A stretch of DNA of 41,278 bases. Origin: Halorubrum vacuolatum. Lineage in GTDB: Archaea; Halobacteriota; Halobacteria; Halobacteriales; Haloferacaceae. The first letter of the stretch is position 1; the number at the start of each line of letters is the position of its first letter. Where the stretch lies: contig NZ_FZNQ01000021.1 of NCBI RefSeq assembly GCF_900188065.1, positions 1 to 41,278 on the forward strand, read 5' to 3'. The notes below the pieces were generated by a model, which saw only the letters and a list, made by a program, of their open reading frames with translations, was not told the origin of the DNA and did no database searches. Shown in pieces: positions 3,361 through 35,855 of the stretch. The position numbers were made by a program, and so were the translations under genes.

Positions 3361-3817
3361 TGAGCCGATCTACCGGTATCTCAAGCAGATGTTCGTCGGT
3401 CTCCAGTCCTGGCTGGAGACCGACCCGACGGATCGAGAACGAGCCCAGATGCATCGTGTCGCCCAGAGAGGGCTCGAAACGCTCGTTGAACGGTCAGACA
3501 CCGACGGACCAGTGGCAACACTGCTCGGCAAGATCGACGGCGGGATCGACCACGGGCTCACCTTCGTCGGTGAGCCAGCGGTCTCACCAACGAACAACGC
3601 CGCCGAGAACGCACTTCGTGAACCGGTCGTTCTCCGGAAAATCATCGGTACGCTCCGCAATGATCGCGGAATGTTCGTTCACGAAACGTTGCTGTCCCTG
3701 CTGGCGACGTGGCGCCAGCAGGGACGCAACTCCTACGATGAACTCAAGCGAGTCGTCGAAAACAACGAGATGACTTCACCCGCTCAGGCTGTGCCTGCCG
3801 TCGAGCCTTCGGGGTAA
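3341..3817 (+). pseudogene. IS66-family transposase, C-terminal remnant
   Basis: About 155 residues of the IS66 TnpC-type transposase C-terminus, with the characteristic SPTNNAAENALRE and RKIIGTLRNDRG segments and the tail ATWRQQGRNSYDELKR. The zinc-binding and central DDE parts are missing; the 5' side runs directly into the antisense nuclease gene. A perfect 13-bp inverted repeat (3694-3706 and 3713-3725, 6-nt loop) lies inside the coding sequence, one of many such hairpins in transposase genes here. It ends at TAA 3815-3817; no terminal inverted repeat was recognised downstream (3818-3943 shows nothing else). Confidence 0.8.
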
Positions 3818-3943
3818 ACACGTACGACTCGTTCACAGATGGCTGTCACTGACAGAAGAGGCCGGCTGGGAGCGAGATCATCGTGTCTGCCACAACATGT
3901 GCGGGTAGTCAGACTGCCGGTCGTACTGGCCAGGGAGACCGAA

Positions 3944-5110
3944 TCACGAATCAGCCGCAACGGTACTGGCCAGAAACGACTCGAGCTTTGCCGCCGTTTC
4001 GTCGTATTCCTGAAGAGACGAGATTTCATCTCGAGCTTTGGCCACGGATTCGCGATAGAAGTCGTCGTTAGTCAGGAGTTCCTTTGCAAGCTTCGTCGCT
4101 CGACGAATGTCATATGGTTCGATACTTAGTTCTGGCCAGCAGCGCTGTTGGAGATAATCATATTTGTTTCCAATAACAGGCACACCGACACCGGCGAATT
4201 CAGCCGACACGCGGCCAGCAGTTGCCCGGTTAGTGAGTTGGATTGCGAGGTCGAACGAGGAGAGATATTCATAATACCCCTCTTCGATGAAGCCCACTGT
4301 TGACACGTGTTCAAGGGTATTGTAGTCCGCTACCATCCGTTGATGATGATCTTTAACGCCGATGATCTCACCCTCCAGTCCAAAGCCGGCATCTCGAAGT
4401 GCATCCAGTAACAATATACTCGTGTAGAAATTTGAATGGTCGATGTTCCAGGAGGTAATTCCTAGACACACTTTATCCTCCGAGCTAGTTCGTGGTGAGA
4501 CATCCTGAAAGTGGCCTTCCGGGACGTGGAACGGCAAAAATATCACATTGTCGTTGAACGTCTCTGCGTACTGTTTGTACTGTCGATTCGAGACGATATA
4601 CCCGTCGACAGAGCGGAGTACTTCACGGTGGCATAGTTGAAGTTTGGGTGAGTACATCGTTACATCCTGGAACCCACCCTCCATTATACCGATTATCGAC
4701 AATTCCGGGCACGTTTCGAGGAGATGTTTAATATAGAAGTTATAGAAGAAGTGATGTGAGATAACTAATACATCGTAGTCACGTATATCTACTATCTCCC
4801 CATCAAACAGCTTGGCATCGAACGAGAACTCCGCTTCATCACTGACACAAAATGCCTCATGGTACATCGAACTAACCTGGGGATAGGCACCATAGAACTC
4901 GTCTTCGAGTCCGTCGCTGAATTTGTCTCCTTTGGCAAACTGGAGGGGGGTATTTTCTACCGTCAGTGGAACGCCAACGTCAGCATCCAACATATCAAAA
5001 TATAGAGTGTTGTCGAATGTGCCTGTTCCCGAGTCGGTATCAGTTTTCCATTCAGTATCGAGGTATAGGAACAAAACGCTCGACATACGAATCAGGTTAC
5101 CATCAGACAT
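3944..5110 (-). CDS. GT-B type glycosyltransferase
   Basis: About 388 residues. The N-terminal half has the alternating strands of a GT-B donor/acceptor domain (VLFLYLDTEW near residue 12, DVLVISHHFFYN, IIGIMEGGFQDV). The C-terminal half has the nucleotide-sugar side: VCLGITSWN, a strand IIGVKDHH, HVSTVGFIEEGYYEYLSSFDLAIQL and AEFAGVGVPVIGNKYDYL, the usual GT4-like region before the C-terminal helix. It would transfer a sugar from an activated donor on the cytoplasmic face. The start is placed at ATG 5110 because a TATA-like box is centred 26 nt upstream; an ATG three codons earlier (5119) and one at 5086 are alternatives. Sugar and acceptor cannot be predicted. Confidence 0.75.
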   Translation of the reverse strand: MSDGNLIRMSSVLFLYLDTEWKTDTDSGTGTFDNTLYFDMLDADVGVPLTVENTPLQFAKGDKFSDGLEDEFYGAYPQVSSMYHEAFCVSDEAEFSFDAKLFDGEIVDIRDYDVLVISHHFFYNFYIKHLLETCPELSIIGIMEGGFQDVTMYSPKLQLCHREVLRSVDGYIVSNRQYKQYAETFNDNVIFLPFHVPEGHFQDVSPRTSSEDKVCLGITSWNIDHSNFYTSILLLDALRDAGFGLEGEIIGVKDHHQRMVADYNTLEHVSTVGFIEEGYYEYLSSFDLAIQLTNRATAGRVSAEFAGVGVPVIGNKYDYLQQRCWPELSIEPYDIRRATKLAKELLTNDDFYRESVAKARDEISSLQEYDETAAKLESFLASTVAADS

Positions 5111-5131
5111 TGTAAACATTCCGGTCGGACT

Positions 5132-5141
5132 ATGCTATATG
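5132..5141 (-). promoter_or_regulatory. TATA-like box of the 3944-5110 glycosyltransferase
   Basis: ATATAGCATA on the minus strand, centred about 26 nt before ATG 5110. This spacing is that of haloarchaeal leaderless promoters and is the reason for choosing this start. Confidence 0.5.
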
Positions 5142-5337
5142 AATGTGTATTTGTGCCGAGTTTGTTGACAAGACTGGAATTCTATGGACTCGACGGGTGT
5201 ACCTCGGCAGTTTATCAACGCACGCACTGCCACGAACGTACCCCCGAGCGGGGTTCTCCGACATCACAACGGCCTGGAATAACACCTGGAGTCGAACAAT
5301 TTCGATCCGATATGTCACTCTCAATTCAGTACCCCGG

Positions 5338-5346
5338 ATTTATTAC
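5338..5346 (+). promoter_or_regulatory. TATA-like box of the VOC-fold gene
   Basis: ATTTATTAC centred 21 nt before ATG 5363 and 27 nt before ATG 5369; a leaderless transcript starting at either is likely. Confidence 0.5.
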
Positions 5347-5362
5347 AGGTGGAACTCACGTT

Positions 5363-5845
5363 ATGTCGATGCCAACGAAGTCCGTCCCTCGAGCGATAAC
5401 ACACGTCGGTCTCACGGTATCGGACATCACCAAAGCGATCAACTGGTATCAAGAGGTTTTTGGATTTCAGTTGTTAAACGAACCGTACACGATTGACAGC
5501 GACGATGCCACATTCGAGCACGATATATTCGGAGAGTTCGACCGGATGACCATGGCCCATCTGGGAACCGGGAACCAGGTTGGGTTGGAACTTTTCGAGT
5601 TCGAGACGAGTGACGGGATGACGGAGACGGATTTCACAAGCCCGGGACTCAACCACTTCTGTGTGATTGACCCGGACATCGAAGAGATGATAAATACGAT
5701 CGAAGAGAACGGTGGGATGCAACACTCACCGATCGAACGACCTTTCGATGATCGGCCGTACCAATTTGCGTTCTGTCGTGACCCGTGGGACAACCATATA
5801 GAGATATACACTCATAGTTACGAACAATTCATGGCTCCCCAGTGA
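5363..5845 (+). CDS. VOC-superfamily metalloprotein (glyoxalase/dioxygenase fold)
   Basis: 161 residues covering two beta-alpha-beta-beta-beta modules. The likely metal ligands of the family are all present: His in ITHVGLTV (about residue 14), Glu in GLELFEF (about 77), His in GLNHFCV (about 98) and Glu in NHIEIYTH (about 147). This H/E/H/E pattern fits the lactoylglutathione-lyase/epimerase branch, which isomerises or cleaves small oxygenated substrates, but the substrate cannot be read from sequence. The frame is open further upstream, but the promoter and the family start favour 5363 or 5369. The next gene, a convergent dehydrogenase, ends 10 bp away, so the pair share a 3' side. Confidence 0.75.
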   Translation: MSMPTKSVPRAITHVGLTVSDITKAINWYQEVFGFQLLNEPYTIDSDDATFEHDIFGEFDRMTMAHLGTGNQVGLELFEFETSDGMTETDFTSPGLNHFCVIDPDIEEMINTIEENGGMQHSPIERPFDDRPYQFAFCRDPWDNHIEIYTHSYEQFMAPQ

Positions 5846-5854
5846 CGCGGAGGC

Positions 5855-6607
5855 TTAAATTGCCGTAAATCCCCCATCGACCGGGTAAACCCCTCCAGTG
5901 ACAAAGGAAGCTTCGTCAGAACACAGCCAAGCGACGACATCTGCTATTTCACCTGGTTTCCCCAATCGTCCGAGAGGGACCGAATCGAGATAGCGTTCGA
6001 GCTGCTCTGTTGTGGTGTTGGCTTGCTGCAGCGGTGTGTCTGTCGCGCCGGGACAGATAGCATTGACGCGAATCCCGTCTGAAGCATATCTCGTCGCTGC
6101 CACGCGGGTGAGACCGATGACACCGTGTTTACTGGCCACGTATGGTGCATTGCCAGCACCTGTGAGCCCAGCAATCGACGACGTGTTGACAATTGCTCCC
6201 CCGTCGTTTTCCGCCATGAGTTCCAGTTCGTACTTCATACAGAGCCAGATACCTTTCAGATTCGTATCTATAACTCTGTCCCACTCTTTTGTCTCCTGCT
6301 CGGTCATCGACTCACCGTTCCCCTCTATTCCAGCATTGTTATGAGCAATATCGATAGTACCATACATCCTATTGGTTTCGCGAACCATGTTTTCGACGGA
6401 CTCTTCCCGTCGGACGTCCGTCTCTATTGCGCTACCGGTCCCCCCACTTGATTCAATCCGGTCGACAGTCTCTCTCGCGTTTTCGATATCGATGTCCGCA
6501 ACAGTAACATTTGCCCCGCCCCGTGCGAAACGTAGAGCTGTTTCGCGACCAATGCCCGAGCCTGCACCGGTCACAACCACGGTTTTATTAGTAAAGTCAA
6601 ATGGCAT
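5855..6607 (-). CDS. Short-chain dehydrogenase/reductase (SDR)
   Basis: 250 residues, the standard length of a classical SDR. The Rossmann motif TGAGSGIG (residues 14-21) binds NAD(P); Asp in VADID (about 38) after strand 2 suggests NAD preference. NNAGI (about 90), the catalytic Ser in NTSSIAG (about 140), Tyr-x3-Lys in YVASK (about 155) and the C-terminal GGVYPVDGG are all present. It should oxidise or reduce a hydroxyl or keto group on a soluble small molecule. Its start at ATG 6607 is fixed by a TATA-like box 27 nt upstream. The neighbouring VOC gene and a second SDR at 9390 suggest one small-molecule pathway. Confidence 0.85.
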   Translation of the reverse strand: MPFDFTNKTVVVTGAGSGIGRETALRFARGGANVTVADIDIENARETVDRIESSGGTGSAIETDVRREESVENMVRETNRMYGTIDIAHNNAGIEGNGESMTEQETKEWDRVIDTNLKGIWLCMKYELELMAENDGGAIVNTSSIAGLTGAGNAPYVASKHGVIGLTRVAATRYASDGIRVNAICPGATDTPLQQANTTTEQLERYLDSVPLGRLGKPGEIADVVAWLCSDEASFVTGGVYPVDGGFTAI

Positions 6608-6630
6608 AATCCCCCTGTCGCGTTCTGAGT

Positions 6631-6638
6631 ATTTAAAA
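6631..6638 (-). promoter_or_regulatory. TATA-like box of the 5855-6607 SDR
   Basis: TTTTAAAT on the minus strand, centred about 27 nt before ATG 6607; leaderless promoter. Confidence 0.55.
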
Positions 6639-7091
6639 CCGGCTTGAACTGGTAGTGACGGCCTGCAGTGTCTGTAGATTCCAACTCGACAAACAGGCCG
6701 TCAGAAGATGTGACGAACGCCAGCAGTATCAATGCTGACGAAATCGTCGCCGACGAAGTGTACTCGCTGCTCGACGCGGTCGCGCTCTCGCGGCCTCTCT
6801 CGACGCGGGCGCGGAACGTATGATCAAGACAAACCGCCCGTGTTCGTCCTCGTGGATCGTGGCACCGAGCAACGGTACGTTGTGCCGGCGAAATCCGCAG
6901 ACGAATCGACGATCCGGCTCCTGCTGGCTGACCGCCAGCAGGAGCCTCTCACGGTCTATACGGACGGATTTTGCGCGTACGATCCGCTTACAGAAGACAA
7001 AACATTCGACCGCGAATACGTCGTTCACGGAGACGGTGAGTACGCCGACGAGACGGTCCACGTGAACACCTGCGAGAGCCACGCGTCGCTG

Positions 7092-8236
7092 TAATGACCG
7101 AGAAAACCTTTGTTGGTCACGCTCAACCACAACGTAATGAGTGGAAATCGTCGAAAAGAAATCACGTATCATCTTCCAGAAGAGAGAATCGATGAACTCC
7201 TCCGCGAAGCTGAAGACGATCGCCGAAAAGAGCGGCTCGGCTTTCTGAAAAACCTTTACTACGGTGATACGATCGCAGAAGCTGCCGACCGTGAAGGCCG
7301 GTCGGCAGCGACCGGGAGACGCTGGGTAGAAGCCTGGAACGAGGGTGGACTTGAGGGATTAATGCCGAGTTTCGGGGGCGGCGGCCCCCGAAACTCGACG
7401 AAGACGAACAACAAGAGCTGGTGGAGATGCTTCGGGACGGCCAACCGTGGAAATCACAGGAGATTCAGCATCTCCTCAAAGAGGAGTTCGATGTCGAATA
7501 TCATCCGGATTACCTCGGGAAATTTCTCCGTGAACTGGGCTTGTCCTACGCAAAACCCCGTCCGAAGCGGCCACATCGACCGGAGAATCCTGAGGAAATT
7601 CTTGACGAGCGCGTCGGCGACGCGCTCGACGAGGATGGCGGCCCTCACAACAGAGAGAAAGGAGATGACAAAGAAGGATGGACTGTTGACGACGATGTCT
7701 GTACGGATGGCGGAACTGTTCTGGGGTTTTTCGATGCCTCACAACCGCAACCGTACGACAATTCCCGCCGTGTCTGGTACGTAGACGATCCACACGTGGA
7801 ACGGCCGTTAGTCAAGACAGAGGACTCGGCGGTTGGATTCTACGCACTGAATGGGGAGAGTACAGTTCGCTGGAAAAAAACCGAGGAGAAAGAGCGGATT
7901 TGTGAGGTGTTAGAGGTGGTCCGCGAGCAGAATCCCGGCAAGCGGATTCTGCTCGTCTTGGACAAGCACGGCTCACACGTCTGTGAATACACGCGCAAGC
8001 GTGCGCATCAACTTGGCATCAGTCTCATCTTCCTTCCGTCAGGATCGCCGCATCTCAACCCAATCGAACAGGTCTGGAAATACCTCAAGTGGACGATGGC
8101 ACCGATCATCGTCGAGGACGAAGACGAGTTCCACGAACTCGTCAAGGATGTTTTCGAGCAAGTGACACAGCGAATCAGTTTTGCCAAAGACTGGTGTCAG
8201 AAGTTCCTCGATCTACAGAAGTTTCCTTGATCATTA
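7092..8236 (+). mobile_element. IS630-family element, copy 1 (full length)
   Basis: The ends are TA-flanked imperfect inverted repeats: the left starts TAATGACCGAGAAAACC and the right, read inward, TAATGATCAAGGAAAC. The unit sits inside the IS1595 transposase between its HASL and ARRW codons. Removing 7092-8236 leaves no duplicated TA, so either the target TA is counted as part of the element or one copy was lost. It carries one transposase gene in two frames. A second copy begins at 17185. Confidence 0.8.
7137..8230 (+). pseudogene. IS630-family transposase with a frame change near 7385
   Basis: It starts at ATG 7137 (MSGNRRKEITYHLPEERIDE), with a helix-turn-helix N-terminus (EAADREGRSAATGRRWVEAW), and continues in a second frame from about 7390 (LDEDEQQELVEMLRDGQPW). 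The catalytic domain is in the second frame: FFDASQPQP, LLVLDKHGSHV and HLNPIEQVWKYLK, the D/D/E set of IS630/Tc1-type enzymes. Compared with the homologue at 17960-19007, which codes GGGRPPKL in one frame here, one base is missing inside the loop of a 13-bp hairpin (7366-7378 and 7385-7397). Copy 2 has the same change, so it is either programmed frameshifting (a -1 shift would be needed) or an inherited defect. Further hairpins lie at 7281-7309, 7606-7628 and 7924-7955. Confidence 0.8.
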
Positions 8237-8419
8237 GCGCGACGGTGGCTCTCGCCGCATCGAGGCATCTCAAAAGATCGCCTCACACAGTATCTCCGAG
8301 CGTTCCAACTCAGACGAGAACTCTACCGCAAACCCGGACGAAAAGCGCTCAAACACGCCGTCAAAGCCACTCTCTGAAATCAACAATATGCTACACAAGA
8401 GCGGTCGAACATTTTTAAC

Positions 8420-9359
8420 GGCTGTGTTGAATCGGCATAAGGCGTAGAGATTCACTGTTTGACGAAGCGTTTGATGTTGTAGACGACACACATCAAGGCG
8501 ATTTCGCGGAACTCACGGAACCAAGAACGAGCTCGCACGGCGAAGCCGAGCGAGCGCTTCACAGCCGAGTTCACGGTCTCGGTCATCGAGCGTTGATTGT
8601 AGCGCTGTGTGTCGATTCTAGCATTGTGCGCATGGTCATATGGAGCGAAGATGCGATGTTTGATCAGCGGGCGAATCCCGAGGTTACGAAGGGATTCGCG
8701 GAGTGCTTGTTTGTCGTAGCCTTTGTCCGCAGCGAGAGACCGCAGATCGCCCGCATTTCGGCGGGCGATCTGCTCAGCGAGATCTGCGTCGCTTACTTCT
8801 CGGGTGGTTGAGCAGTGCACGTCAAGGACAGCTTGGGACGCTGTATCGACTAATTTCGTCACTTTGAGCTTTTGAACACGGTAGCTGATCCGCTGGCAGT
8901 AGTGGCGGCTGGCTGGTGAGCGGTCGTAGAACGTAGCGTCGATGGCAGCATGTTCGGAGAGTTCGTGCAGCTGCGCCGACTGGCGCAGCAGCACTCGACA
9001 GACACTCATGCTGATCCGGTCGAATGCCTTACACAACGTGGATGGTGCGGGGAGATCGGCCGCTTTGAGGCCGATCTCTCCAGTTATTTGTGGCATCTCT
9101 TTGAGCAGGTCGATAGTCATGCGATAGGATGTATCGAGGTAAATTCGCAGACAATGAAGGGAAACGAGGGCATAGTCGGCGAATCCGCCGCCACCTTCCG
9201 GGGCGGCGGATTCGTCTCCATCACCAGTGACTCTTTGAGCAACCGGCACAACTTCCCCAATGAAGCGGGAGATTTGGGTCATGAACAACTGAAGTCTCCC
9301 GCTTCAATACCTTTGATTTAGCGACCTGTTCTGCTGCCGTCTAGCGATTCAACGCAGCC
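8420..9359 (-). mobile_element. Complete IS5-family insertion sequence (940 bp)
   Basis: The 15-bp terminal inverted repeats GGCTGTGTTGAATCG (8420-8434) and GGCTGCGTTGAATCG (complement of 9345-9359) match at 14 positions, and a perfect 8-bp target duplication surrounds the unit. One intact transposase gene lies inside on the minus strand. Similar ends (GCTGTGTTGAAT) occur at 35399 and, more distantly, in the element at 36003-37153. Confidence 0.92.
8452..9288 (-). CDS. IS5-family transposase
   Basis: 278 residues, apparently intact. The catalytic residues fit the IS5 DDE pattern: Asp in AIDATFYDRS (about 118), Asp in LAADKGYDKQ (about 188) and Glu in MTETVNSAVKRSLG (about 242), with R and K at the usual Y2/K1 positions. 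The protein would act in cis or trans on the flanking 15-bp ends. The coding sequence holds several perfect hairpins: 8742-8754 with 8761-8773 (13 bp), 9180-9192 with 9202-9214 (13 bp), 9052-9061 with 9069-9078 (10 bp) and 8970-8977 with 8982-8989 (8 bp). Three of these are matched in position by hairpins in the truncated homologue at 35473. Confidence 0.9.
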   Translation of the reverse strand: MFMTQISRFIGEVVPVAQRVTGDGDESAAPEGGGGFADYALVSLHCLRIYLDTSYRMTIDLLKEMPQITGEIGLKAADLPAPSTLCKAFDRISMSVCRVLLRQSAQLHELSEHAAIDATFYDRSPASRHYCQRISYRVQKLKVTKLVDTASQAVLDVHCSTTREVSDADLAEQIARRNAGDLRSLAADKGYDKQALRESLRNLGIRPLIKHRIFAPYDHAHNARIDTQRYNQRSMTETVNSAVKRSLGFAVRARSWFREFREIALMCVVYNIKRFVKQ

Positions 9360-9367
9360 TTTTTAAC
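9360..9367 (+). promoter_or_regulatory. TATA-like box of the 9390 SDR, recreated by the IS5 target duplication
   Basis: TTTTTAAC centred about 26 nt before GTG 9390, suiting a leaderless transcript. It is the right copy of the target duplication of the IS5 element. Confidence 0.6.
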
Positions 9368-14112: not shown

Positions 14113-14946
14113 GGGGGTGGGATAGAATCAATCTCATAGTGCCAAGTTCGGACTGCTCGGATCACCTCCTCGTTCATAATTCGTAATCGCCACGACGAGT
14201 CGAAGGCACAGCGATAAAAACACGTGTGCCTTCGCCATCTCGCGGTCTCGGGCAGGAACGTGCCCGAGACCGCCCTCCATGCAGACGTTGATTGCGTTTT
14301 CTACTTGCGACCTCAGTGCATAGGTCTCGTCCAGTTGTGTCTGCCACACACCGATATTCTCGAAGTGTTCTTCGATTCGTGATTCGACCCTGTACTCGAT
14401 ATCGAGTGGATCGTTCGTGTTGCGTGGGTTGTATGGAGCCACCGGCACGACGTTCTGCGAGAGCAGAAGGTCGTGTCAGTTCAGGATATCGAACGCTGAA
14501 TCACCAATCATCCAGATCGGCTTCTTGACGGCGAGCGCGTCACGCGTGACGCGCATCGCCGTCTCTTCATCGACTTGCTTTTGGTCTGTGAACGCCGCTG
14601 CGACCGGGATGTTGTGAGCAGTTGTGACCAACGTACAGCCGTAGCCGAAGTACTTCTCGTCAGCTGTTGGATCGTGATTCCACGTCCCATCAGAGTCATC
14701 TCGAAAGGGCGTCCGTATATCGGTTGAATCGATCCGGAATGTTAGGGAGAGCAGGCCGCGCTATCGGGGGCGAAAACGTCGAACTCTTCGAAAAACGACG
14801 GATCAAGATACTCGGCCAATGCTGTGATCTCCGTCTCCAAGACATTGAAGACGTCCTCAACCGTATCTATCGATGACAGGGCTTGTGTGGACATGGCATC
14901 TCACTAGCCCTGTCGCTTATCCTGAGAAGCTTTCTATCCCACCCCC
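14113..14946 (-). mobile_element. Decayed insertion sequence with intact ends (834 bp)
   Basis: Perfect 15-bp inverted repeats, GGGGGTGGGATAGAA at 14113-14127 and its complement at 14932-14946, with a perfect 8-bp target duplication. The clean ends contrast with the ruined transposase gene inside, which suggests the element was mobilised in trans after or during decay. Confidence 0.88.
14134..14894 (-). pseudogene. DDE transposase of a haloarchaeal ISH element (IS4-like), internally deleted
   Basis: The start reads MSTQALSSIDTVEDVFNVLE and runs to FFEEFDVFAPDS. A deletion and frame change follow near 14765, then LTFRIDSTDIRTPFRDD (first catalytic Asp), YFGYGCTLVTTAHNIPVAAAF and WMIGDSAFDILN (second Asp). 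A TGA at 14476-14478 replaces what is probably Trp (ILN-W-HDLL). The rest continues to AITNYERGGDPSSPNLAL. Two hairpins are present in coding sequence: 14242-14254 with 14261-14273 (13 bp) and a perfect 20-nt palindrome at 14535-14554. Family assignment is tentative; non-function is clear. Confidence 0.75.
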
Positions 14947-16692: not shown

Positions 16693-17184
16693 CTAACCAG
16701 CCTCCAGATCACGCCACCACAGGTACCGACGCTTCGGTTCCGTGAACAGCGATTTCATTTGCTCGCTCTCCAACTTCGGAAACAACTCACGACCCACCGA
16801 AAGCGACCAGTTCCGCGACACCAGCCCGTTCTTCAGCGTCCGAACGCGCATCTGCGTGTGCAGAAACGACCGCGCGCGCTCCTTTGATCGAAACCGACGC
16901 TCGATTTGCGTCGGTTTCGTGTGCCCGTAGTACCGCTCGAGGTTGTTCGTGGTACTCGGCACCCACTCGTCCCGGAGATGCAACGCGAACCGATCAAAGT
17001 TCTGCTGTACCTCCTCGACGTATCCACGCACCTCTGTCGGCAGCTGCTCGACCTTGTCGAGCACTGCCTCAAACCGCCGAACTGCTCCCTCATAGGACGG
17101 AGCCGCAAACACCTGCTTGAACTCACTCCAGACGAGCGCTCCCCGGAGCTTCTCCGAGTCAGAGTACCGAACGCTCCGGAACAC

Positions 17185-17705
17185 TAATGACCGAGAAAAC
17201 CTTTGTCGGTCATGCTCAACCACAACGTAATGAGTGGGGATCGTCGAAAAGAAGTCACGTATCATCTTCCAGAAGAGAGAATCGATGAACTCCTCCGCGA
17301 AGCTGAAGACGATCGCCGAAAAGAGCGGCTCAGCTTTCTGAAAAACCTTTACTACGGTGATACGATCGCAGAAGCTGCCGACCGTGAAGGCCGGTCGGCA
17401 GCGACCGGGAGACGCTGGGTAGAAGCCTGGAACGAGGGTGGACTTGAGGGATTAATGCCGAGTTTCGGGGGCGGCGGCCCCCGAAACTCGACGAAGACGA
17501 ACAACAAGAGCTGGTGGAGATGCTTCGGGACGGCCAACCGTGGAAATCACAGGAGATTCAGCATCTCCTCAAAGAGGAGTTCGATGTCGAATATCATCCG
17601 GACTATCTCGGGAAGTTCCTTCGTGAGTTGGGCTTGTCCTACGCAAAACCCCGTCCGAAGCGTCCACATCGACCGGAGAATCCAGAGGAAATTCTCGACG
17701 AGCGC
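17185..17705 (+). mobile_element. IS630-family element, copy 2 (3'-truncated)
   Basis: Nearly identical to copy 1 from the left end (TAATGACCGAGAAAACC at 17185) through codons LSYAKPRPKRPHRPENPEEILDE, where it stops abruptly at about 17705 and joins the host transposase remnant. The transposase start is ATG 17230. It has the same one-base difference in the GGGG hairpin (17459-17490) as copy 1. The DDE domain and right end are absent, so it is dead. Confidence 0.85.
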
Positions 17706-17951: not shown

Positions 17952-19036
17952 TAGAGTGATCAGCGTAACTTCTGAATATCCGGGAGGAACGTCTCGATCC
18001 AAGCAGCTGCGAAGCTCAGTCGCTGACTCAACCGGAGGAATCTCTGCGTGAGAAACTCGCGGAAGTGAGTTTTGTCCTCGAAGATCTCTGGTGAGGTCTC
18101 TCGCTTGAGATCTTTCCACAGCGGTTCAATTGCGTTCAGTGTCGGTGAATACGGTGGGATGAAGACGAACTCGATGCCGAGTTCGTCGGCCCGTTGCTGC
18201 GTGAGCTTCGCGTGGTGTGACCCGTAGTTGTCTGCCACGAGCAGAATCCGCGGGGCCGGATTCTGCTCGCGGATCTCTTCGAGCGCCTCAACGATCGTCT
18301 CTTTGACCAACCGTTCTGTGAACGTGATCACGCTCTGGCCAGTCAACGCGTAGAAGCCAATTGACCGCCACGGCACTGCTACTAACGGCTTCTCTATCTG
18401 GACGGTGCGGTCGTACGACCACATCCGTTGGGAGTTCTCGAACGGCTGCGGCCACGATTCATCGAAAAAATCCGAGGATCACCGGGTCATCCTCGTCACT
18501 TTCGTCGTCATCTTCGCCGAGCGCCTGAGAGAGGCGCTCGGCGAGGATCTCCTCAGCATCATCTGGACTGCGTGGATCCATCGGCCGTGGCTTGGCATAA
18601 TGCATCCCGCTAGCGCGTAGCTTCCGGCTCAAATGAGCCGGATCGTAGGTAACACCGTAGCGGTCGTGGATGAGTGCGTGGATTGCTCGTGGTGTCCACG
18701 GCTGACCCTCCTCAAGGATCTCACACAGGTCGGAGAACTGTTCGTCCGAGAGTTTCGGGGGGCGACCGCCCCCGAAACTCGGTCGTAACCCATCGACACC
18801 GCCATCATTCCAAGCGTGCGCCCACCGACTACTGTTGGCTTGAGAAACACCGACGCGACTGGCGGCTTCCTGCAACACATCACCTGCGTAGAGATTCTTC
18901 ACAAAACAGAGACGGCGGACGAGCGGGGCCTCGTCCGCCTTCTGTGCCTCATCAAGTTCCTCTTCAGAGAGATGTTCCACCACCTCGACCCGTCGACGTC
19001 CACTCATGGACACTATAGGTTCTGTGAGTATCCATA
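17952..19036 (-). mobile_element. IS630-family element, copy 3 (diverged, complete ends)
   Basis: Bounded by TA at 17952-17953 and 19035-19036. Removing the element and one TA restores the codons of the host transposase, which identifies the TA target duplication typical of IS630/Tc1 elements. The terminal repeats are imperfect (TAGAGTGATCAGCGTAAC and TATGGATACTCACAGAAC). It is a different IS630 lineage from copies 1 and 2. Confidence 0.82.
17960..19007 (-). pseudogene. IS630-family transposase with a +1-base frameshift at an A6/T6 run
   Basis: It starts at ATG 19007 (MSGRRRVEVVEHLSEEELDE), with an HTH region AASRVGVSQANSSRWAHAW, the SFGGGRPPKL linker in one frame, and LRASGMHYAKPRPMDP. The first frame ends after DPVILGFF because of six T (complement of A6 at 18465-18470); one T fewer would give GFFDES with the first catalytic Asp. 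The second frame continues MWSYDRTVQIEK, LLVADNYGSHHA and LNAIEPLWKDLK (the remaining Asp and Glu) to IQKLR. A -1 shift would not restore the frame, so this is a mutation or needs polymerase slippage. Hairpins: 18238-18269, 18514-18544, 18750-18780, 18914-18939. Confidence 0.8.
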
Positions 19037-19318
19037 CTTTGCGCAGACCACTCACGCCCGTGCGGGTGCCGCGTGTATCTCCCGTTCTTCCAGAGGTCGG
19101 TTCTGCTACACTCAGGACACCGTGGGTGTGAGAACTCGAGAACCGGAACTTCATCAGGAGACGGCTCGATACGTTCAAACGGTGCGGTGGTTAGGGTGTG
19201 CACAGCTCAACTATCGCACCATCTTCTAAAGAACCTGAACTGTCGCGTCGCTTCCGCCAGCGACGCGACGGCTTCTGATCGAATCTCTCACTCAACGGGG
19301 AGAACAAGCCGAGACCAA

Positions 19319-26124: not shown

Positions 26125-26146
26125 GGGTGGCGCGGCCGCGCCACCC
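26125..26146. repeat. 22-bp perfect palindrome before the IS1595 remnant
   Basis: An 11-bp half-site GGGTGGCGCGG followed directly by its complement. It lies 8 bp before ATG 26155 and is G+C-only apart from one A/T pair. Confidence 0.8.
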
Positions 26147-26154
26147 GACGAAGT

Positions 26155-26574
26155 ATGATTCCACTCAAGACGTTCGTCTCGGAGCGTCGGGCCGCGAATC
26201 TGCTGGCACAGATTCGCTGGCGTGACGGCGTCTATTGCCCACGCTGCCGTACCGAATCGGTGATTCGGTACGGCAGCTATCGGGTGTTTCAACGGTATCT
26301 GTGTAAGGATTGCGGACGCACGTTCAACGACAAGACCGTTACGGTCTTCGAACACTCGTCGGTCCCGCTCAGGAAGTGGTATCTCGCCGTCTACACCTAT
26401 ATGATCGCGACCGAACCATCGGTTCGAAGTGCGATGCTTGGCGCCGTCCACGCGCGCTGGGACGCCAGTATCCGGACGTTCACCGATGCCACGGACTGCT
26501 GTCGGCTCTGCGCACAGTTCTGTACCCACATTCAGAACGAGGAACTCTACGGATCGCTCGACCGTCTGGACTGA
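26155..26574 (+). pseudogene. IS1595-family transposase, N-terminal remnant
   Basis: It begins MIPLKTFVSERRAANLLAQ and has the zinc ribbon of this family: CPRC (about 27) and CKDCGRTF (about 51), then SVPLRKWYLAVYTYM. After about residue 95 the frame no longer matches; the adjacent frame reads LGRQYPDVHRCHGLLSAL, so there is a frameshift near 26440, and the catalytic domain is absent. A 16-bp perfect hairpin (26243-26258 and 26262-26277, 3-nt loop) lies within the ribbon codons, and a 9-bp one at 26194-26217. Confidence 0.75.
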
Positions 26575-31164: not shown

Positions 31165-31187
31165 CGGCTAAATCACCTCTCGTGTCT

Positions 31188-31195
31188 GGTAATAC
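31188..31195 (-). promoter_or_regulatory. TATA-like box of cas6
   Basis: GTATTACC on the minus strand, about 27 nt before GTG 31164. Confidence 0.5.
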
Positions 31196-31289
31196 ACCAT
31201 ACCGGAGGTCCGGCGCTATCACTTAAAAATCATCACCTGAGTTGTCAGGTCCACCCCTAATGTTCTATAGATTTCTCTCCTCGCACTGC

Positions 31290-31583
31290 GCTTCAACACC
31301 ACAGAGGTCCATCTGAAACATAATCACGCGGGCATACCAGCGCATCCGTTCGTTGCTTCAACACCACAGGGGTCCGTCTGAAACTCACGACGGCCGGGCG
31401 GCCATCCTTGGTGACTGGCTTGCTTCAACACCACGAGGGTCCGTCTGAAACCATCGGCGAACCGTTCGGGATCGAAAAGTGGATCGCGCTTCAACACCAC
31501 GAGGGTCCGTCTGAAACTCGGACGGCGGTGCGTGCATCGCCATAACTTCAGCGGCTTCAACACCACGAGGGTCCGTCTGAAAC
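31290..31583 (-). CRISPR. CRISPR array, 5 repeats and 4 spacers, type I-B
   Basis: 30-bp repeats at 31290-31319, 31355-31384, 31422-31451, 31488-31517 and 31554-31583; spacers of 35, 37, 36 and 36 nt. On the minus strand the repeat begins GTTTCAGACGGACCC and ends TGTTGAAGC, the haloarchaeal I-B form, so transcription runs toward cas6. The three right-hand repeats are identical, the next differs slightly and the one beside cas6 most. That is the normal decay pattern at the leader-distal end and places the leader right of 31583. I saw no match of the spacers to the rest of this window. Confidence 0.97.
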
Positions 31584-31690
31584 CATAGCCGAAACCGACT
31601 ACACAACCGTTCTATCACCGCCTTTGACTTGAGTTTTCTGTCGACCTTCAATACCCCGCGCACCCCCGGGGGGTCGACTGAACAGTCGGT
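31584..31690 (-). other. Presumed CRISPR leader with a repeat-like relic
   Basis: Position and array polarity mark this as the leader side. At about 31647-31687 a sequence with TTCAATACC and GGGTCGACTGAAC resembles a repeat broken by a C/G-rich insertion. No clear TATA box is seen, so array transcription may be weak. Confidence 0.4.
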
Positions 31691-31693
31691 GGC

Positions 31694-31795
31694 TCACTCG
31701 GTCTCCTCACTCGATGTGAGGTACTCGTCAAGCTGGTCGCGAAGGCTTGCCGCCTCCTCGGGGGTCAGGTGTGCCATATCGAACTCGCTGGCATG
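31694..31795 (-). pseudogene. C-terminal scrap of an unknown protein
   Basis: The minus-strand frame reads ASEFDMAHLTPEEAASLRDQ and ends EETE with TGA at 31694. The sequence looks coding but has no start of its own beyond an internal ATG at 31777 (27 residues). Confidence 0.35.
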
Positions 31796-31898
31796 AAATC
31801 CTCCTCGCAGTAAGCAGCGAAGTTTCCTCGCGCTCGGGCATCCCCATCGCAGTATCTGCCTGCCGAAGCGATCGTTCTCGGCGAGACTCTACTGGAAC

Positions 31899-32063
31899 TT
31901 ACTGATTGATGTGACGCCTTTGACATCCTCCCCGCGCTGAAGCGCGAGGATTCCAGCGCGGGACAGCGGGCCGGTCCCGTGTCACCGCTGGCAACTTCTC
32001 GCCTGCAGAACGGGATTCGGCGAGGCTTTCTCCTTGGTTTCTGTAACTCTGCAGTCCGATCAT
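31899..32063 (-). pseudogene. 3' end of an IS200/IS605-type tnpB with right-end structure
   Basis: The frame ends SAGEKLPAVTRDRPAVPRWN then PRASARGGCQRRHINQ and TAA at 31899. The DNA at 31924-31960 (GACATCCTCCCCGCGCTGAA and on) is the complement of the structured right end also found after the TnpB at 39590-39622. Everything upstream in the gene is missing. In TnpB systems this region encodes the scaffold of the guide RNA, so this is a solitary right end next to the CRISPR leader. Confidence 0.6.
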
Positions 32064-32111
32064 AGGTGGACAGGTGGTCGTTGTGAGAGAATCTGAAGCC
32101 GCCTCCTCTTA

Positions 32112-32210
32112 TTAGATAACTTACTTATATTAGAATCTTAGATAAGAATCTAATTTTAGAATCTTAGATTATTGTCTGACGTAACTATATAATCTATGAG
32201 AGTTAGATAA
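32112..32210 (+). repeat. Iterons upstream of the ParA operon
   Basis: TTAGATAA at 32112, 32138 and 32203, a variant TTAGATTA at 32164, and a longer direct repeat TTAGAATCTTAGAT at 32130-32143 and 32156-32169. The array overlaps the promoter and is very A+T-rich. It could be the operator or centromere-like site of the partition operon, or part of a replication origin. Confidence 0.75.
32186..32193 (+). promoter_or_regulatory. TATA box of the ParA operon
   Basis: TATATAAT about 27 nt before ATG 32217; iterons lie on both sides, so iteron binding could repress this promoter. Confidence 0.65.
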
Positions 32211-32216
32211 GATACA

Positions 32217-33098
32217 ATGCTTTCATATACCGTCTACAGCGAGGCCGGCGGTGTCGGCAAGACAACGCTGACATGGAACACAGCGGTCGCGCACGCTCGC
32301 GCGGGTCTCAACGTGCTCGTCATCCCGCTTGATCCCCAAGACGGCAACTTGAGCCGCCTCGCCGATGTCGACGGCGATCGCACCGACCCGCAGGCTGACA
32401 GCTTGGTTCGTCACCTCGTCGGGAGCCCCCGTGGTGAGTTCAACGACCTGATCCGGAGGGCTGAGGGAGTCGACATCGTCCCAGAGCACAACACGCTCTC
32501 AGATCTACAAGACCACCTACGCAGAGAGAAACAAAAGGCCGAGGACTTTGGTGACGCGTTCAATATCTACGCGCAGTTGCGACGCGTGCTCTCGGAGAAC
32601 GGCGTACCGTCGGAGTATGATGTCGTCGTTTGTGACCCACCAGCGACCGAGTCGATCCACCTCTATAACGCGATTTACGCGATGCGAAACCTCCTGATCC
32701 CACTGGAGCCCAGCGCGAAGGGAGAGGCTTCTGTCCAAGGACTCGAGCAACTGGCGACAAACTTCGCCGACCAGCTAGAGATTGACGTCGGCGTCCTTGG
32801 CGCCGTCCCGATGGGCTACAAAGACACCGCTGACCAGCGGGAGATGCTCGAAGATGTTCCATTCGAGGTCCCGGCGGTGATCGGCGACCGGACAGCGCTC
32901 ATGGAGGGCTGCTGGAAGATGCAGTGTTCGGCGTTCGAGTACGTTCGGAAGTATCGCAGCCCTCGCCGCGACTACGAGGTCGAGACGCTGGCGCAGTTTG
33001 ATGAGATCGCGCGATATCTTGAGCAGCAGGCTGGCGTCGAGGCGCCGTCGGTACCCGAACCGGGAGCTCTCGACGAGGATAACGAGGTGACGGTCTGA
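32217..33098 (+). CDS. ParA-family ATPase (plasmid partition)
   Basis: 293 residues. The Walker A-type loop is SEAGGVGKTTLTWN (residues 8-21). The signature Lys that normally precedes Gly-Gly (KGG) is Ala here, so it departs from classical deviant Walker A. Switch I/II elements follow: VIPLDPQDGNLS (about 40) and YDVVVCDPPATES (about 138). Such ATPases position plasmids by dynamic binding to DNA. The acidic tail is typical of haloarchaea. The stop overlaps the next start (TGATG at 33096-33100), so the two are translationally coupled. The upstream iterons probably serve this operon. Confidence 0.88.
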   Translation: MLSYTVYSEAGGVGKTTLTWNTAVAHARAGLNVLVIPLDPQDGNLSRLADVDGDRTDPQADSLVRHLVGSPRGEFNDLIRRAEGVDIVPEHNTLSDLQDHLRREKQKAEDFGDAFNIYAQLRRVLSENGVPSEYDVVVCDPPATESIHLYNAIYAMRNLLIPLEPSAKGEASVQGLEQLATNFADQLEIDVGVLGAVPMGYKDTADQREMLEDVPFEVPAVIGDRTALMEGCWKMQCSAFEYVRKYRSPRRDYEVETLAQFDEIARYLEQQAGVEAPSVPEPGALDEDNEVTV

Positions 33099-33490
33099 TG
33101 GCGGGCTTCAAAGAGGGCTCAGTTAACGGCTGGGGCGACGAGGAAGAAGACGAAGCGGGGGGGAGCGACACCGGCTCCACCGATGCCAGCGTCGACACTG
33201 GCCTCCATCGAGATGAGCGTACCACGTCGCGGGTCGTGGAGGAGTCAACGCCGCGCCTTCCGTGGATCCACCGGCGGAGTAGCATCACGGACGGCCGCGA
33301 GAACACTAAGCAACTCCATCTTCAGGATACGACGGTTGAGGTTGAACGCAAGCAGAAGTCAAAGATCGAGGACCTCCTCGGCGAGAGCGTGAAGAAGGCT
33401 GATCTTCGCGAGGCAGCCCTCCTGGTCGGGCTGATGCACATCGAGGAAACTGCCGATCAGCTCCAGGAGTGGGGGTACGCGGTGGAGTGA
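33098..33490 (+). CDS. ParA-partner protein (probable partition adaptor)
   Basis: 130 residues: an acidic, Ser/Thr-rich unstructured N-terminal half, then a basic and helical C-terminal half (RKQKSKIEDLLGES, DLREAALLVGLMHIEETADQ, LQEWGYAVE). It has no ParB-type HTH that I can see. Its position, coupled to the ParA gene, and the second copy of the same design at 33983 support a role as site-binding or adaptor protein for partition. This is inference from context. Confidence 0.65.
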   Translation: MAGFKEGSVNGWGDEEEDEAGGSDTGSTDASVDTGLHRDERTTSRVVEESTPRLPWIHRRSSITDGRENTKQLHLQDTTVEVERKQKSKIEDLLGESVKKADLREAALLVGLMHIEETADQLQEWGYAVE

Positions 33491-33982
33491 CTTGACAAAT
33501 TCATATCGCGATATGCACTATACGTGGGTGGAAAAACACACTTTGTAGGCCTACACTCCACTATCGAAGTGTATTCTGACCGCCTGAACCCCTGCTTCGA
33601 GACGTCGATATCGGTGTCCTCAAGGCGGTGAAACAGGTACACACCACGTTTTCAGTAAATTAGTCCTAGAATCCGGGGTTAGATAGTTTATCCTAAATAT
33701 TAGGCCCTTCCCCACAGTCTGTACGATTTTAACCAACAACTCATCTCTCCACCACGCCATGTTGGTTAATTTCAGTCACTATCGTAGAGGGTTTCAATAG
33801 GGCCAATTAATTCTGATAAAAAGTTGGGTAGTCCTTTTATACTGTTACTTCGAATTTGTTTCTATGGTGATTTTGTTCTCGGTTATCGGGCTGCGTCGAT
33901 ACAGCACGGCTTGATCGAGTTGGAGCCCAGAGCCTCCAAATCACCCGTCGCTGAAGAAAGGAATGTACAGCTCCTCAAAAGG
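33491..33982. other. AT-rich intergenic region with an inverted-repeat site
   Basis: No gene recognised apart from an open frame leading into the pseudogene at 33983. It contains the TTAACCAAC/GTTGGTTAA pair at 33729-33769, listed separately, and long A+T-rich stretches. Confidence 0.5.
33729..33769. repeat. Inverted repeat TTAACCAAC-N23-GTTGGTTAA
   Basis: Perfect 9-bp arms at 33729-33737 and 33761-33769. The same arms with 24-nt spacing recur at 39700-39741. Spacing between arms is close to two to three helical turns, as for a dimeric regulator or origin-binding protein. Confidence 0.8.
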
Positions 33983-34366
33983 ATGAAAGAGGGTGCCGGA
34001 GAGAACCTATTTGCAGACGATGAGCCATCAGATCAGAGTGCCAGCACGCGATCATCACCCAGTCATGCGGAACAGACCCAACCTGCGCAAGCTGATGATA
34101 GGACAGACGACCGAGATCAAAGACAATTCCAGATACCGTATAAATTCCGCCGTGATGGTGTCCAAGACGGTCGCGAACGGGTTCCACTGTTCCTTCAGCC
34201 AGAGACAAAACGAGGCGAGCGCGAAGCATAAGGTGAACTTGAGGAGCGACTAGATGAGGACGTCTCCATCACGGACCTTCGCCAGGCACTTATGAAAGCC
34301 GGGCTTCAGCATCTCGATGAAGTGGAAGGGAATCTTGAAGACTGGGGATACGGAAATCACATATAA
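33983..34366 (+). pseudogene. Second ParA-partner-like gene with an in-frame stop
   Basis: It reads MKEGAGENLFADDEPSDQSA, an acidic spacer, PYKFRRDGVQDGRERVPLFL and KRGEREA. A TAA at 34229-34231 follows, then the frame continues GELEERLDEDVSITDLRQAL and ends HLDEVEGNLEDWGYGNHI. The tail resembles the end of the 33098 gene (LHHIEET...LQEWGYAVE type), so this is a paralogue or the partner of a lost ParA. A single nonsense change breaks it. Confidence 0.7.
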
Positions 34367-34682
34367 CCTCATCCTCGTCCGGTGGACGCGCGATATCTAC
34401 TTTCAATCCGTGGTCACTCATGTTGAGTCTGATTTTATATATCGCACTGCCGTGTTCGTGGCGTTCTCTCGGTTCAGCCATTTCAGTGTCATCGTTCGTC
34501 GCAACTTCTGTTTTGTATCTACCATGCAGTCGTTCAAATGCAGCCGTTTCCGCACTTGTGTCGGGTGTTTATAGTCAACTACGTCGGGGCAAGTCCCGAG
34601 CTATCCGCCTTGTTTATTGATGAATGCGCTCAGCGGATAGATAGAGTATGTTGTGGCCAGTCTGCGAGATATACAACCGGAA
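34367..34682. other. Intergenic region with a possible minus-strand gene scrap
   Basis: On the minus strand 34380-34560 codes a plausible peptide (AFERLHGRYKTEVATNDDTE, then MAEPRERHEHGSAIYK), but it has no start upstream and runs antisense into the partner pseudogene. I cannot assign it. Confidence 0.35.
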
Positions 34683-34988
34683 TCAAATCCGGCGTGCAAG
34701 TATCTCACTTATTATATTGCCAAGCTCCGTGTACTCGTTTCCGTTTCGGCACTCTTGCATTACTTGATCGATGTCTTCCGTTGTAGATATAATCGCCTCA
34801 GAACTTTCTGGGGGATATACTACCATGTTTCCCTCTACTTGGCCGGACTCCTCACGATCAAATTTGTGTTTGTGCTCAAGGAGCAAGATTACCTTATCAT
34901 CTGTTTGCCCCTGAAGGTTTTTGCCGAATTTTGCTTTTATATTCAACCTTTTCAATTCTTGTTTACTGAGTCGGGTTTTCTGAGGCAT
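34683..34988 (-). CDS. Hypothetical protein, second gene of an AT-rich pair
   Basis: 101 residues, basic N-terminus (MPQKTRLSKQELKRLNIKAK) unlike the acidic genes around it, and no cysteine pairs or membrane segment. It begins 2 nt after the stop of the 114-residue gene upstream, so they form a two-gene operon. Codon use is A+T-rich, which suggests recent transfer from a virus or plasmid. No family recognised. Confidence 0.6.
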   Translation of the reverse strand: MPQKTRLSKQELKRLNIKAKFGKNLQGQTDDKVILLLEHKHKFDREESGQVEGNMVVYPPESSEAIISTTEDIDQVMQECRNGNEYTELGNIISEILARRI

Positions 34989-34990
34989 TG

Positions 34991-35335
34991 TTATTCAATA
35001 CGTATATCTCCCGCTGTCATTGGCTCCCCGCAACTGTTACAGAGTAACTTATCTTCGGGTGACGGTTCTTTAGTTGAATCCCCGCCAATTATATTGTCAA
35101 TGTCCTGTTTCATATTATAATAAATATAGAGTTGTCTGATAAGCCACCATAACGTCTCAGGATCTGCTTGGCCGATATCGAATAGCTCGGTTAGCCCAAG
35201 AAATTTTGCTACTTCATCAGCGCCATTCAATTCAGATTTCAGAGCGTCTTTAAGATCACTTTCTGGTATTTCTATTGTCCTTGTCTGTGTAGGACATTCA
35301 GGTTCTGTACACTCTAAGGTCACAACTACTGCCAT
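34991..35335 (-). CDS. Hypothetical zinc-binding protein, first gene of an AT-rich pair
   Basis: 114 residues. Two cysteine sites: CTEPEC near residue 9 and CNSCGEPM near residue 98, possibly one zinc site joining both ends. The middle is helical with an aromatic run LWWLIRQLYIYYNMKQD. Codon use is A+T-rich like its partner. No family recognised; a small accessory protein of viral or plasmid origin is plausible. Confidence 0.6.
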   Translation of the reverse strand: MAVVVTLECTEPECPTQTRTIEIPESDLKDALKSELNGADEVAKFLGLTELFDIGQADPETLWWLIRQLYIYYNMKQDIDNIIGGDSTKEPSPEDKLLCNSCGEPMTAGDIRIE

Positions 35336-35398
35336 ATGAGTATGTAGTATGCATACGTGTTAAGCTCTAGGAATTTAAAATCAGTACCTCACAAAGCT

Positions 35399-35855
35399 GC
35401 TGTGTTGAATAGCGATCTTATCTGCCATTTTCGGCGGTTTAGAAGGATGAAGCCGAGGAAATCGAGCTTGGTATGGAGATCAATATCCTTGACTTCATCG
35501 AGCAGTGTCGTGACCTAGCTAAACAAGCGTTGGGAAAGCACGCGGGCGAGCCCGCCAGCGGCGGGTTCGCCCGCTGGGTTCACGTCGTTTTGCACTGTTT
35601 TCGGGTCGAAGACGGCCACAGCTACCGTGAAACGTCTAATCGGCTGAAGTACATGGCTGAGGTCCGCGATGCTCTTGACTTAGATCGGGACGATATCCCC
35701 GATCACACGACGATCTACAAGTCGTTTGATCGGCTGAAAATGTGGGTGTGGCGGGCGCTGCTGCGCGTTTCTGCGCAGCAGCACCCGGAGTCTGGCCACG
35801 CTGCGCTCGACAGCACGTTCTTCGACCGCCGACGTGCGTCCTCGTACCATTCGTG
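35399..35855 (+). mobile_element. IS5-family element, 3'-truncated
   Basis: The left end GCTGTGTTGAAT at 35399-35410 matches the ends of the complete IS5 at 8420-9359. The transposase gene starts at 35473. The element is cut at about 35855 and has no right end; the 150 bp after it show no gene. Confidence 0.7.
35473..35855 (+). pseudogene. IS5-family transposase, N-terminal half
   Basis: MEINILDFIEQCRDLAKQAL, VVLHCFRVEDGHSYRETSNR, IPDHTTIYKSFDRLKMWVWR and ALDSTFFDRRRASSYH, the last with the first catalytic Asp. Native sequence ends there; the frame runs on to 35967 without similarity. It is homologous to the 8452-9288 transposase and carries hairpins at three matching places: 35542-35574, 35683-35704 and 35757-35782. 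Confidence 0.8.

Follow-up and report, generated by a model that had tools for sequence, protein, structure and literature searches.

Several insertion sequences (IS), among them IS10, IS200 and ISPpu9, control themselves through mRNA structure and antisense RNA, the structure being located at the start of the mRNA. Repetitive extragenic palindromic (REP) sequences, miniature inverted-repeat transposable elements (MITEs) and Rickettsia palindromic elements (RPEs) are inserted copies of one repeated sequence. Palindromes within coding sequence were described for mitochondria of Nematomorpha, where they have been ascribed to a conversion that erases mismatches and leaves the palindromes without function (PMC6649704). 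Another study (PMC8604942) recognises polymerase template switching at inverted repeats by two traces, the homogenisation of arms and the inversion of spacers. Here we describe perfect hairpins embedded in the coding sequences of transposase genes in a 41,278-nt stretch of Halorubrum vacuolatum DNA (contig NZ_FZNQ01000021.1, positions 1 to 41,278; hereafter the window) and in transposase genes of other haloarchaea.

Exhaustive scanning of the window (perfect arms of at least 9 bp, loops of 3–10 nt) revealed 25 hairpins. Transposase open reading frames (ORFs), which make up 6,536 bp, contain 23 of them, and the remaining two adjoin such an ORF (19242–19269 at 64 bp, 26125–26146 at 9 bp). The same scan found no further hairpin in the other 34.7 kb, in agreement with the first-pass annotation, which had seen none comparable in the non-transposase genes; the ORF of TnpB (IS200/IS605; 38826–39569, plus strand, Pfam OrfB_IS605), which holds no hairpin, serves as an internal control. 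All 19 hairpins listed in that annotation were recovered where it had placed them. Its description of the arms as mostly perfect applies to 18 of the 19 over the given span, with 10–16 bp, the exception being 35542–35574 with a 15-bp arm and one mismatch. The 25 hairpins of the scan comprise 17 from this list and eight that had been missed.

To place these hairpins in a wider frame, transposase loci were collected by profile searches of the H. vacuolatum genome and of 60 genomes of its family (its own included). The counts by family refer to the loci among the matches listed, at most 30 per search, and IS66 was sampled in the window only. A first set of 155 loci was reduced to 117 by dropping ORFs shorter than 200 nt and near-duplicates, and a second set comprised 41 genes from 80 regions after removal of L412, of ORFs shorter than 300 nt and of sequences near the first set. 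Counted with perfect arms of at least 10 bp and loops of 3–10 nt, 137 non-redundant haloarchaeal IS transposase genes (111 kb; 76 DDE_Tnp_1, 29 IS630, 24 IS1595, 6 IS110 and 2 from pNRC100) carry 260 hairpins, compared to 2.8 in synonymous shuffles, which keep the protein, the codon usage and the GC content. At least one hairpin is present in 111 of the 137 genes. The first set yielded 174 hairpins (2.3 shuffled) in 96 genes, 75 of them with at least one: 40 against 0.44 for DDE_Tnp_1 of the same genome (22 genes), 50 against 0.86 for DDE_Tnp_1 across the family (23 genes), 29 against 0.16 for IS630 (24 genes), 37 against 0.74 for IS1595 (21 genes) and 18 against 0.14 for IS110 (6 genes). The second, non-redundant set yielded 70 against 1.0, with at least one hairpin in 32 of its 41 genes. 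Haloarchaeal DDE/DEDD IS transposase genes (IS4/IS5, IS630, IS1595, IS110, ISH3) carry approximately 2–3 perfect coding hairpins per kb, in which synonymous codons are picked such that one stretch of the gene is the exact reverse complement of another close by. On the Halobacterium plasmid pNRC100, counted with arms of at least 9 bp, ISH3B, ISH27-2, ISH8, ISH8A, ISH28 and ISH11 each carry between two and seven hairpins. Hairpins alone also revealed, at 35759–36841 (plus strand) of NC_001869.1 (L231), an ORF for an IS4-family transposase that contains four of them and for which the incomplete plasmid table lists no gene.

The hairpins share several properties. Loops of 4–7 nt are the commonest, and loopless palindromes are enriched as well (loops of 0–2 nt, 42 against 1.2 expected). 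Perfect arms longer than 14 bp are rare: among 412 hairpins of the 137 genes with arms of at least 7 bp and loops of 3–9 nt, ten have arms of 15 bp, one of 16 bp and none of 17 bp. Arms are GC-rich (71% versus 56% outside). The three possible codon registers are represented by 115, 46 and 19 of 180 hairpins, with a preference for the one that sets codon against codon, which agrees with a limit placed by the protein sequence on the sites where a hairpin can be built. The density of hairpins is 2.4 per kb in the ORF, 0.7–0.8 per kb in the flanking 100 bp and 0–0.34 per kb farther downstream. In the 137 genes, a second group with apparent loops of 13–20 nt (58 against 2.4 expected) perhaps represents stems with an inner mismatch.

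Cellular genes behave differently. In 211 chromosomal ORFs of at least 150 amino acids from the same genome (280 kb), 12 hairpins were counted, the shuffles giving a mean of 7.4 and a maximum of 12. The idea put forward in the first-pass annotation, that the hairpins are general to haloarchaeal DDE transposases and not a property of cellular genes, therefore holds for the sampled families (260 versus 2.8, as compared to 12 versus 7.4): neither an equal density in cellular genes nor a lack of excess over codon-preserving shuffles, the two outcomes which it had named as fatal, was observed. An origin by chance, base composition or codon bias is virtually impossible in view of the synonymous shuffles, and the cellular ORFs, in spite of a GC content higher than that of the transposases, have no clear excess.

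The generality does not extend to all mobile recombinases or to all transposases. Tyrosine integrases showed no hairpin in 30 genes (0.53 expected) and TnpB two in 21 genes (0.34 shuffled), which rules out a feature common to mobile recombinases; in Y1 TnpA, three hairpins (0.18 shuffled) are confined to two of 17 genes, a weak excess. IS1595 transposases of other archaea, from genomes related at phylum level only, have no hairpin in 13 genes, their GC content being lower (0.47). For this comparison 23 of 25 new loci were entered, L225 and L230 being left out as the same IS as L212, and 13 of 15 non-haloarchaeal and two of eight haloarchaeal loci were kept. IS1, IS5, IS30 and a fragment of IS911 from E. 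coli are free of arms that reach 9 bp. Five bacterial plasmids with a mean GC content of 58–65% contained one hairpin in 26 ORFs (22 kb) matching DDE_Tnp_1 or rve, some of these matches lying below the family cut-off, and Methanohalobium had one hairpin in four genes (36 of 44 loci entered in these two comparisons, 30 kept). A feature general to transposases is ruled out by the E. coli IS, the bacterial-plasmid ORFs and the non-haloarchaeal IS1595. The generality thus holds for the sampled haloarchaeal DDE families but not for transposases at large, since hairpins are almost wholly missing from TnpB, most Y1 TnpA, the bacterial genes examined, ISH7A and the IS1595 genes of other archaea.

Hairpin clusters by themselves point to transposase genes. 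In 450 kb scanned, in stretches partly chosen for their IS, 12 clusters of at least two hairpins and 28 single hairpins were found. Eleven clusters fall on ORFs annotated or family-matched as transposase, and the twelfth (L043:12879–13591) overlaps a decayed DDE_Tnp_1 match. Three chromosomal hairpins with perfect 17-bp arms and 7-nt loops (L035:11397–11437, L038:9594–9634, L040:2058–2098) are longer than any transposase hairpin and possibly represent one repeated element.

Comparison of related genes demonstrated that the pairing is under purifying constraint with compensatory change. In 94 nearest-neighbour pairs, each gene being used once, third-position divergence at codons for identical amino acids was 3.0% in the arms (95 of 3120), 18.3% outside and 23.4% in the loops; amino-acid divergence was 4.8%, 9.4% and 23.3%, respectively. 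The rate of change in arms is 3.5- to 6-fold below that of the remaining sequence, and changes at arm sites overall amount to 0.28 of expectation. The ratio of observed to expected changes is 0.28 at the outermost pair, 0.24 in the middle and 0.42 and 0.49 beside the loop, and it rises to 1.04 one base outside the arm, which therefore has a sharp edge. In 136 independent pairs we counted 51 paired complementary changes, 215 one-sided changes and 26 paired changes that broke the complementarity. Ordered pairs at 60–90% amino-acid identity gave 450 paired complementary changes versus about 28 expected, a number inflated by shared ancestry, and paired change was detected across 20–90% identity. 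Covariation of paired sites, as expected of an RNA hairpin, is present. The IS5 transposase gene of the window (8452–9288, minus strand; NCBIfam IS5_2 above cut-off) is an example: its hairpins at 8742–8773 (13-bp arms, 6-nt loop), 9052–9078 (10 bp, 7 nt) and 9180–9214 (13 bp, 9 nt) are common to most of 80 homologs, the best 80 of 230 relatives in haloarchaeal records, and are kept in most of the 76 distinct sequences (the window's own included), the homologs having 80–96% identity.

The constraint is strand-symmetric. Of a hairpin acting in the mRNA one would expect a greater tolerance for G.T than for A.C. With expectations specific for base and codon position, the 136 independent pairs showed G.T mismatches at 0.181 and A.C at 0.178 of expectation (69 and 65 observed, 382 and 365 expected, p = 1.0), C.C at 0.158 and G.G at 0.174 (20 and 24 cases), C.T at 0.116 and A.G at 0.119 (13 and 16 cases), and T.T at 0.231 and A.A at 0.120, the latter two on five and three cases. 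Among standing hairpins of the first set with one mismatch, T.T occurred 14 times and A.A twice. An apparent wobble signal of sense RNA (266 G.T against 129 A.C at 60–90% identity, with sequences reused) vanished once independent pairs and expectations specific for base and codon position were used. Predicted RNA folding of the first 600 nt of 24 genes was equally strong for sense (z −4.66) and antisense (z −4.46). Since both strands are seen alike by the constraint, either the DNA matters or transcripts of both strands do. The mRNAs of 12 haloarchaeal TnpB genes also fold beyond their synonymous shuffles (z −2.78 sense, −2.03 antisense), despite few perfect hairpins.

A binding site had been suggested among the possible functions. 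In the 137 genes, seven of 499 arm 9-mers recur between unrelated families, compared to three of 1039 in the control, a small excess that gives little support to a shared binding sequence. A sequence-specific site is unlikely, because arms change while staying complementary and share little between families. By the same count, the hairpins largely lack the shared sequence of inserted palindromic repeats of the REP, MITE or RPE type.

Template switching seems to act on these hairpins. In the IS5 homologs, loops are sometimes found as the reverse complement (e.g. CGGAAC versus GTTCCG, CCGGAAGGT versus ACCTTCCGG), and such inversions affect all three hairpins of the window gene, in some homologs at 8742–8773 and 9180–9214 and in one homolog at 9052–9078. 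In the 136 pairs, 24 of 384 directional comparisons of loops of at least 5 nt were inverted, corresponding to about 15 events in 14 gene pairs, four of these events being 5-nt loops that may be due to chance. The inversion of spacers between intact arms is what template switching predicts, and one could ask whether the hairpins are neutral or parasitic coding palindromes, as in Nematomorpha mitochondria, in which template switching or arm conversion erases mismatches and which persist without function. This reading is favoured by the loop inversions, which affect each of the three IS5 hairpins and roughly 14 of the 136 gene pairs, as well as by the even constraint, the sharp edges and the little preference for a type of mismatch. 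Furthermore, loops lie at variable positions of the protein (amino-acid divergence 23.3% versus 9.4% outside), as expected if flips recur, and also as expected if intolerant loops were lost. Unbiased conversion alone, however, implies paired synonymous changes at the neutral rate, many more than were seen: at pairs joining two third codon positions, only three of 143 had changed in a paired way, compared to 22.4% third-position divergence outside, a small sample, for which the closest set offered 41 comparisons of hairpins in this register; two sets of more distant pairs gave four of 127 versus 42.8% and 18 of 129 versus 55.2%. GC-biased conversion is unsupported as well, as it predicts a fast turnover of A:T pairs, which are as stable as G:C pairs. 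The sparing of cellular genes, integrases and TnpB is likewise left unexplained by neutral palindromes, which we consider rather unlikely. The template-switch origin suggested by the first-pass annotation is thus supported by the loop inversions but seems insufficient as selection-free arm conversion; because conversion models predict faster paired turnover, selection on pairing seems to be needed in addition.

What this selection favours can be narrowed by the class of the genes, by the position of the hairpins in the ORF and by published proteomics of Halobacterium salinarum, which together point to a role in expression. In bacterial elements it is often the site for the ribosome that is concealed, and leaderless transcripts prevail in haloarchaea; this might be a reason for placing control inside the gene. 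We tentatively favour coding hairpins that are selected because, on the transcripts of both strands, they hold down the expression of the transposase, and that are perfected by template switching. According to this proposal, template switching between the arms during replication would create, perfect and occasionally flip the hairpins, and selection would keep them because they make the element's transcripts fold, irrespective of the start point and of the strand transcribed. Folded transcripts may stall ribosomes or polymerase and expose the RNA to decay, with the outcome that little transposase would be made despite abundant mRNA; the element would thereby limit its own activity, and antisense transcripts would fold likewise. 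According to PMC10134880, mobilome mRNAs of H. salinarum are abundant and four of 33 proteins were detected, three of these being TnpB; TnpB is the class nearly without hairpins. For an ISH3 transcript, the same study reports an accumulation of ribosome reads at its 5′ end, and according to PMC6523106 58 of 846 Halobacterium antisense RNAs overlap transposases. Limited expression, which the first-pass annotation had listed as a limit on translation of read-through mRNA, remains the most likely of the functions it offered, but an action restricted to the sense mRNA does not agree with the equal tolerance of G.T and A.C.

Hairpins acting in the sense mRNA only, slowing translation or triggering decay like the control regions of IS10 and IS200 but along the whole gene, would agree with the strong sense folding (z −4.66), with the low amount of transposase protein despite its mRNA (PMC10134880), with the predominance of 4–7-nt loops and with GC-rich arms (71% versus 56%). 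We nevertheless judge this version improbable, because G.T is tolerated no better than A.C (69 versus 65) and the antisense strand folds as strongly. Symmetry is more simply explained by a role at the DNA level, in which the element's DNA would form hairpins or cruciforms that, for example, block replication or transcription machinery, hinder recombination between copies or make the gene a poor target for other IS. Extrusion from the duplex is a rare event for GC-rich repeats of 13 bp, which counts against such a role, and it has no known benefit for the element; moreover, the hairpins are concentrated in the ORF and fall off immediately downstream. On the other side stand the symmetric tolerance of mismatches (G.T/A.C 69/65, C.C/G.G 20/24, C.T/A.G 13/16, at near-equal expectations), the loop inversions, which are DNA events, the enrichment of loopless palindromes (42 versus 1.2) and, according to PMC3119063, a tendency of mobile genetic elements in Haloquadratum to target other such elements. 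We regard the DNA-level role as somewhat doubtful, yet nearly as likely as the control of expression.

Several observations weigh against control of expression by the hairpins. Ribosomes unwind hairpins within genes well. Equal suppression of G.T and A.C requires a similar load on both strands, for which a DNA-level role is simpler. Although they encode transposases, 15 of 17 Y1 TnpA genes are without hairpins, and both ISH7A ORFs of pNRC100 lack hairpins with arms of at least 9 bp. On the upstream side, 0.2–1.0 hairpins per kb persist as far as 600 bp from the ORF, perhaps due to decayed parts of elements, so that the restriction to the ORF is clear downstream only. Finally, PMC10134880 ascribes the low protein amounts to SmAP1 and antisense RNA rather than to hairpins, and there the loss of SmAP1 lowered transposition. 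Chances seem about even that unrelated haloarchaeal IS families each evolved strand-symmetric coding hairpins under a shared, haloarchaea-specific pressure, which would constitute a previously undescribed control of mobile elements or a DNA-level protection acting on both strands.

The transposase genes of the window belong to several families and are partly decayed; hairpins are given below as arm length in bp/loop length in nt, and the eight missed in the first-pass annotation are marked as new. An IS66 fragment (3269–3817, plus strand; Pfam DDE_Tnp_IS66 above and NCBIfam IS66 below cut-off) contains two hairpins, 3395–3424 (12/6, perfect, new) and 3694–3725 (13/6), and an IS1595 fragment (6732–7094, plus strand; Pfam DDE_Tnp_IS1595) contains 6916–6946 (13/5). 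It is followed by an IS630 transposase in two overlapping frames (7110–8230, plus strand; Pfam HTH_23/DDE_3, NCBIfam IS630) with five hairpins: 7281–7309 (11/7), 7366–7397 (14/4), 7606–7628 (10/3, or 11 bp with a 1-nt loop), 7924–7955 (12/8) and 8123–8143 (9/3, new). A second copy of the N-terminal part of this IS630 carries 17374–17402 (11/7, new) and 17459–17490 (14/4, new). A divergent IS630 transposase consisting of two ORFs (17960–19178, minus strand; Pfam DDE_3 and HTH_32, NCBIfam IS630 for 17963–18424) holds 18164–18187 (10/4, new), 18238–18269 (13/6), 18514–18544 (13/5), 18750–18780 (12/7) and 18914–18939 (10/6), and the hairpin 64 bp past the 5′ end of its ORF is 19242–19269 (11/6, new).

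Two IS5-type transposases are decayed or truncated. The ORF at 14134–14750 (minus strand), a decayed DDE_Tnp_1 transposase by profile match with one stop within the match, contains 14242–14273 (13/6) and a loopless palindrome of 10+10 bp at 14535–14554. The truncated IS5 transposase at 35473–35967 (plus strand; Pfam DUF772 and NCBIfam IS5_2, both below cut-off) contains 35542–35574, whose mismatched 15-bp arms enclose a 3-nt loop, and 35757–35782 (10/6). The latter extends past one mismatch to 15 bp, as do 18514–18544 and 18914–18939 to 17 and 14 bp, respectively. A truncated IS1595-type transposase (26155–26574, plus strand; Pfam Zn_ribbon_IS1595, NCBIfam IS1_IS1595_Zn) carries 26194–26217 (9/6, new) and 26243–26277 (16/3), and 26125–26146 (9/4, new) lies directly upstream. 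In this plus-strand ORF, the N-terminal part of the transposase is followed by a C-terminal part that corresponds to the final 57 positions of DUF7509, an arrangement resembling a fusion of the IS1595 remnant with another gene. In the ORF 16693–17265, labelled a zinc-ribbon transposase in the first-pass annotation, the hairpin 16889–16919 (12/7) is present; the ORF has no match in Pfam or NCBIfam and was tallied as a transposase with its family unconfirmed. A search of the window against Rfam returned only CRISPR repeats at gathering score and no known RNA family at the hairpins. Four matches to CRISPR-DR24 mark a short CRISPR array at 31355–31583 (minus strand).

If these conclusions are right, base pairing would shape synonymous sites throughout an entire class of mobile genes, in several unrelated families and, within our sample, in haloarchaea only. 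This would offer a possible reason for abundant transposase mRNA yet scarce protein in Halobacterium. With flipping loops and stable arms, the hairpins would provide a natural system for the study of template switching, and their clusters a simple signature for IS discovery, given that all 12 clusters in 450 kb fell on transposase genes, one of them decayed. No account of hairpins inside haloarchaeal transposase genes was found in the literature searched, most subscription papers being outside its reach, and the passages on mobilome expression in PMC10134880 do not mention them.

Of the described systems, the Nematomorpha palindromes come closest. They resemble the haloarchaeal hairpins, according to PMC6649704, as perfect inverted repeats in functional protein genes with both arms coding, rare mismatches and a preference for the codon register favoured by the genetic code (here 115, 46 and 19 of 180). 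Here, too, perfect repeats occur in coding sequence beyond chance, though some of the host genes are decayed. In Nematomorpha, however, arms reach 142 bp, the hosts are respiratory genes of four species, and gain and loss are dynamic, whereas the haloarchaeal hairpins have arms of mostly 10–14 bp (11 of 412 reach 15 bp), belong to one functional class, the transposases, in unrelated families of one archaeal group, and are conserved with compensatory change. Template switching at short inverted repeats (PMC8604942, PMC8794818) shares with them the homogenisation of arms and the inversion of spacers, seen here as loop flips; it is known from mutations that arise across diverse sequences, as opposed to long-lived, constrained hairpins in one class of genes. 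The likeness to IS10, IS200 and ISPpu9 would lie in an RNA structure that limits transposase output, with the difference that the structure of those elements is placed at the mRNA start, compared to many hairpins spread over the coding regions in unrelated families. REP, MITE and Rickettsia elements are also short palindromes tied to mobile DNA, but the hairpins described here are made of the gene's own codons and share little between families. Coding palindromes and template switching are thus already known; new is a conserved, strand-symmetric and gene-class-specific set of such hairpins in haloarchaeal transposases.

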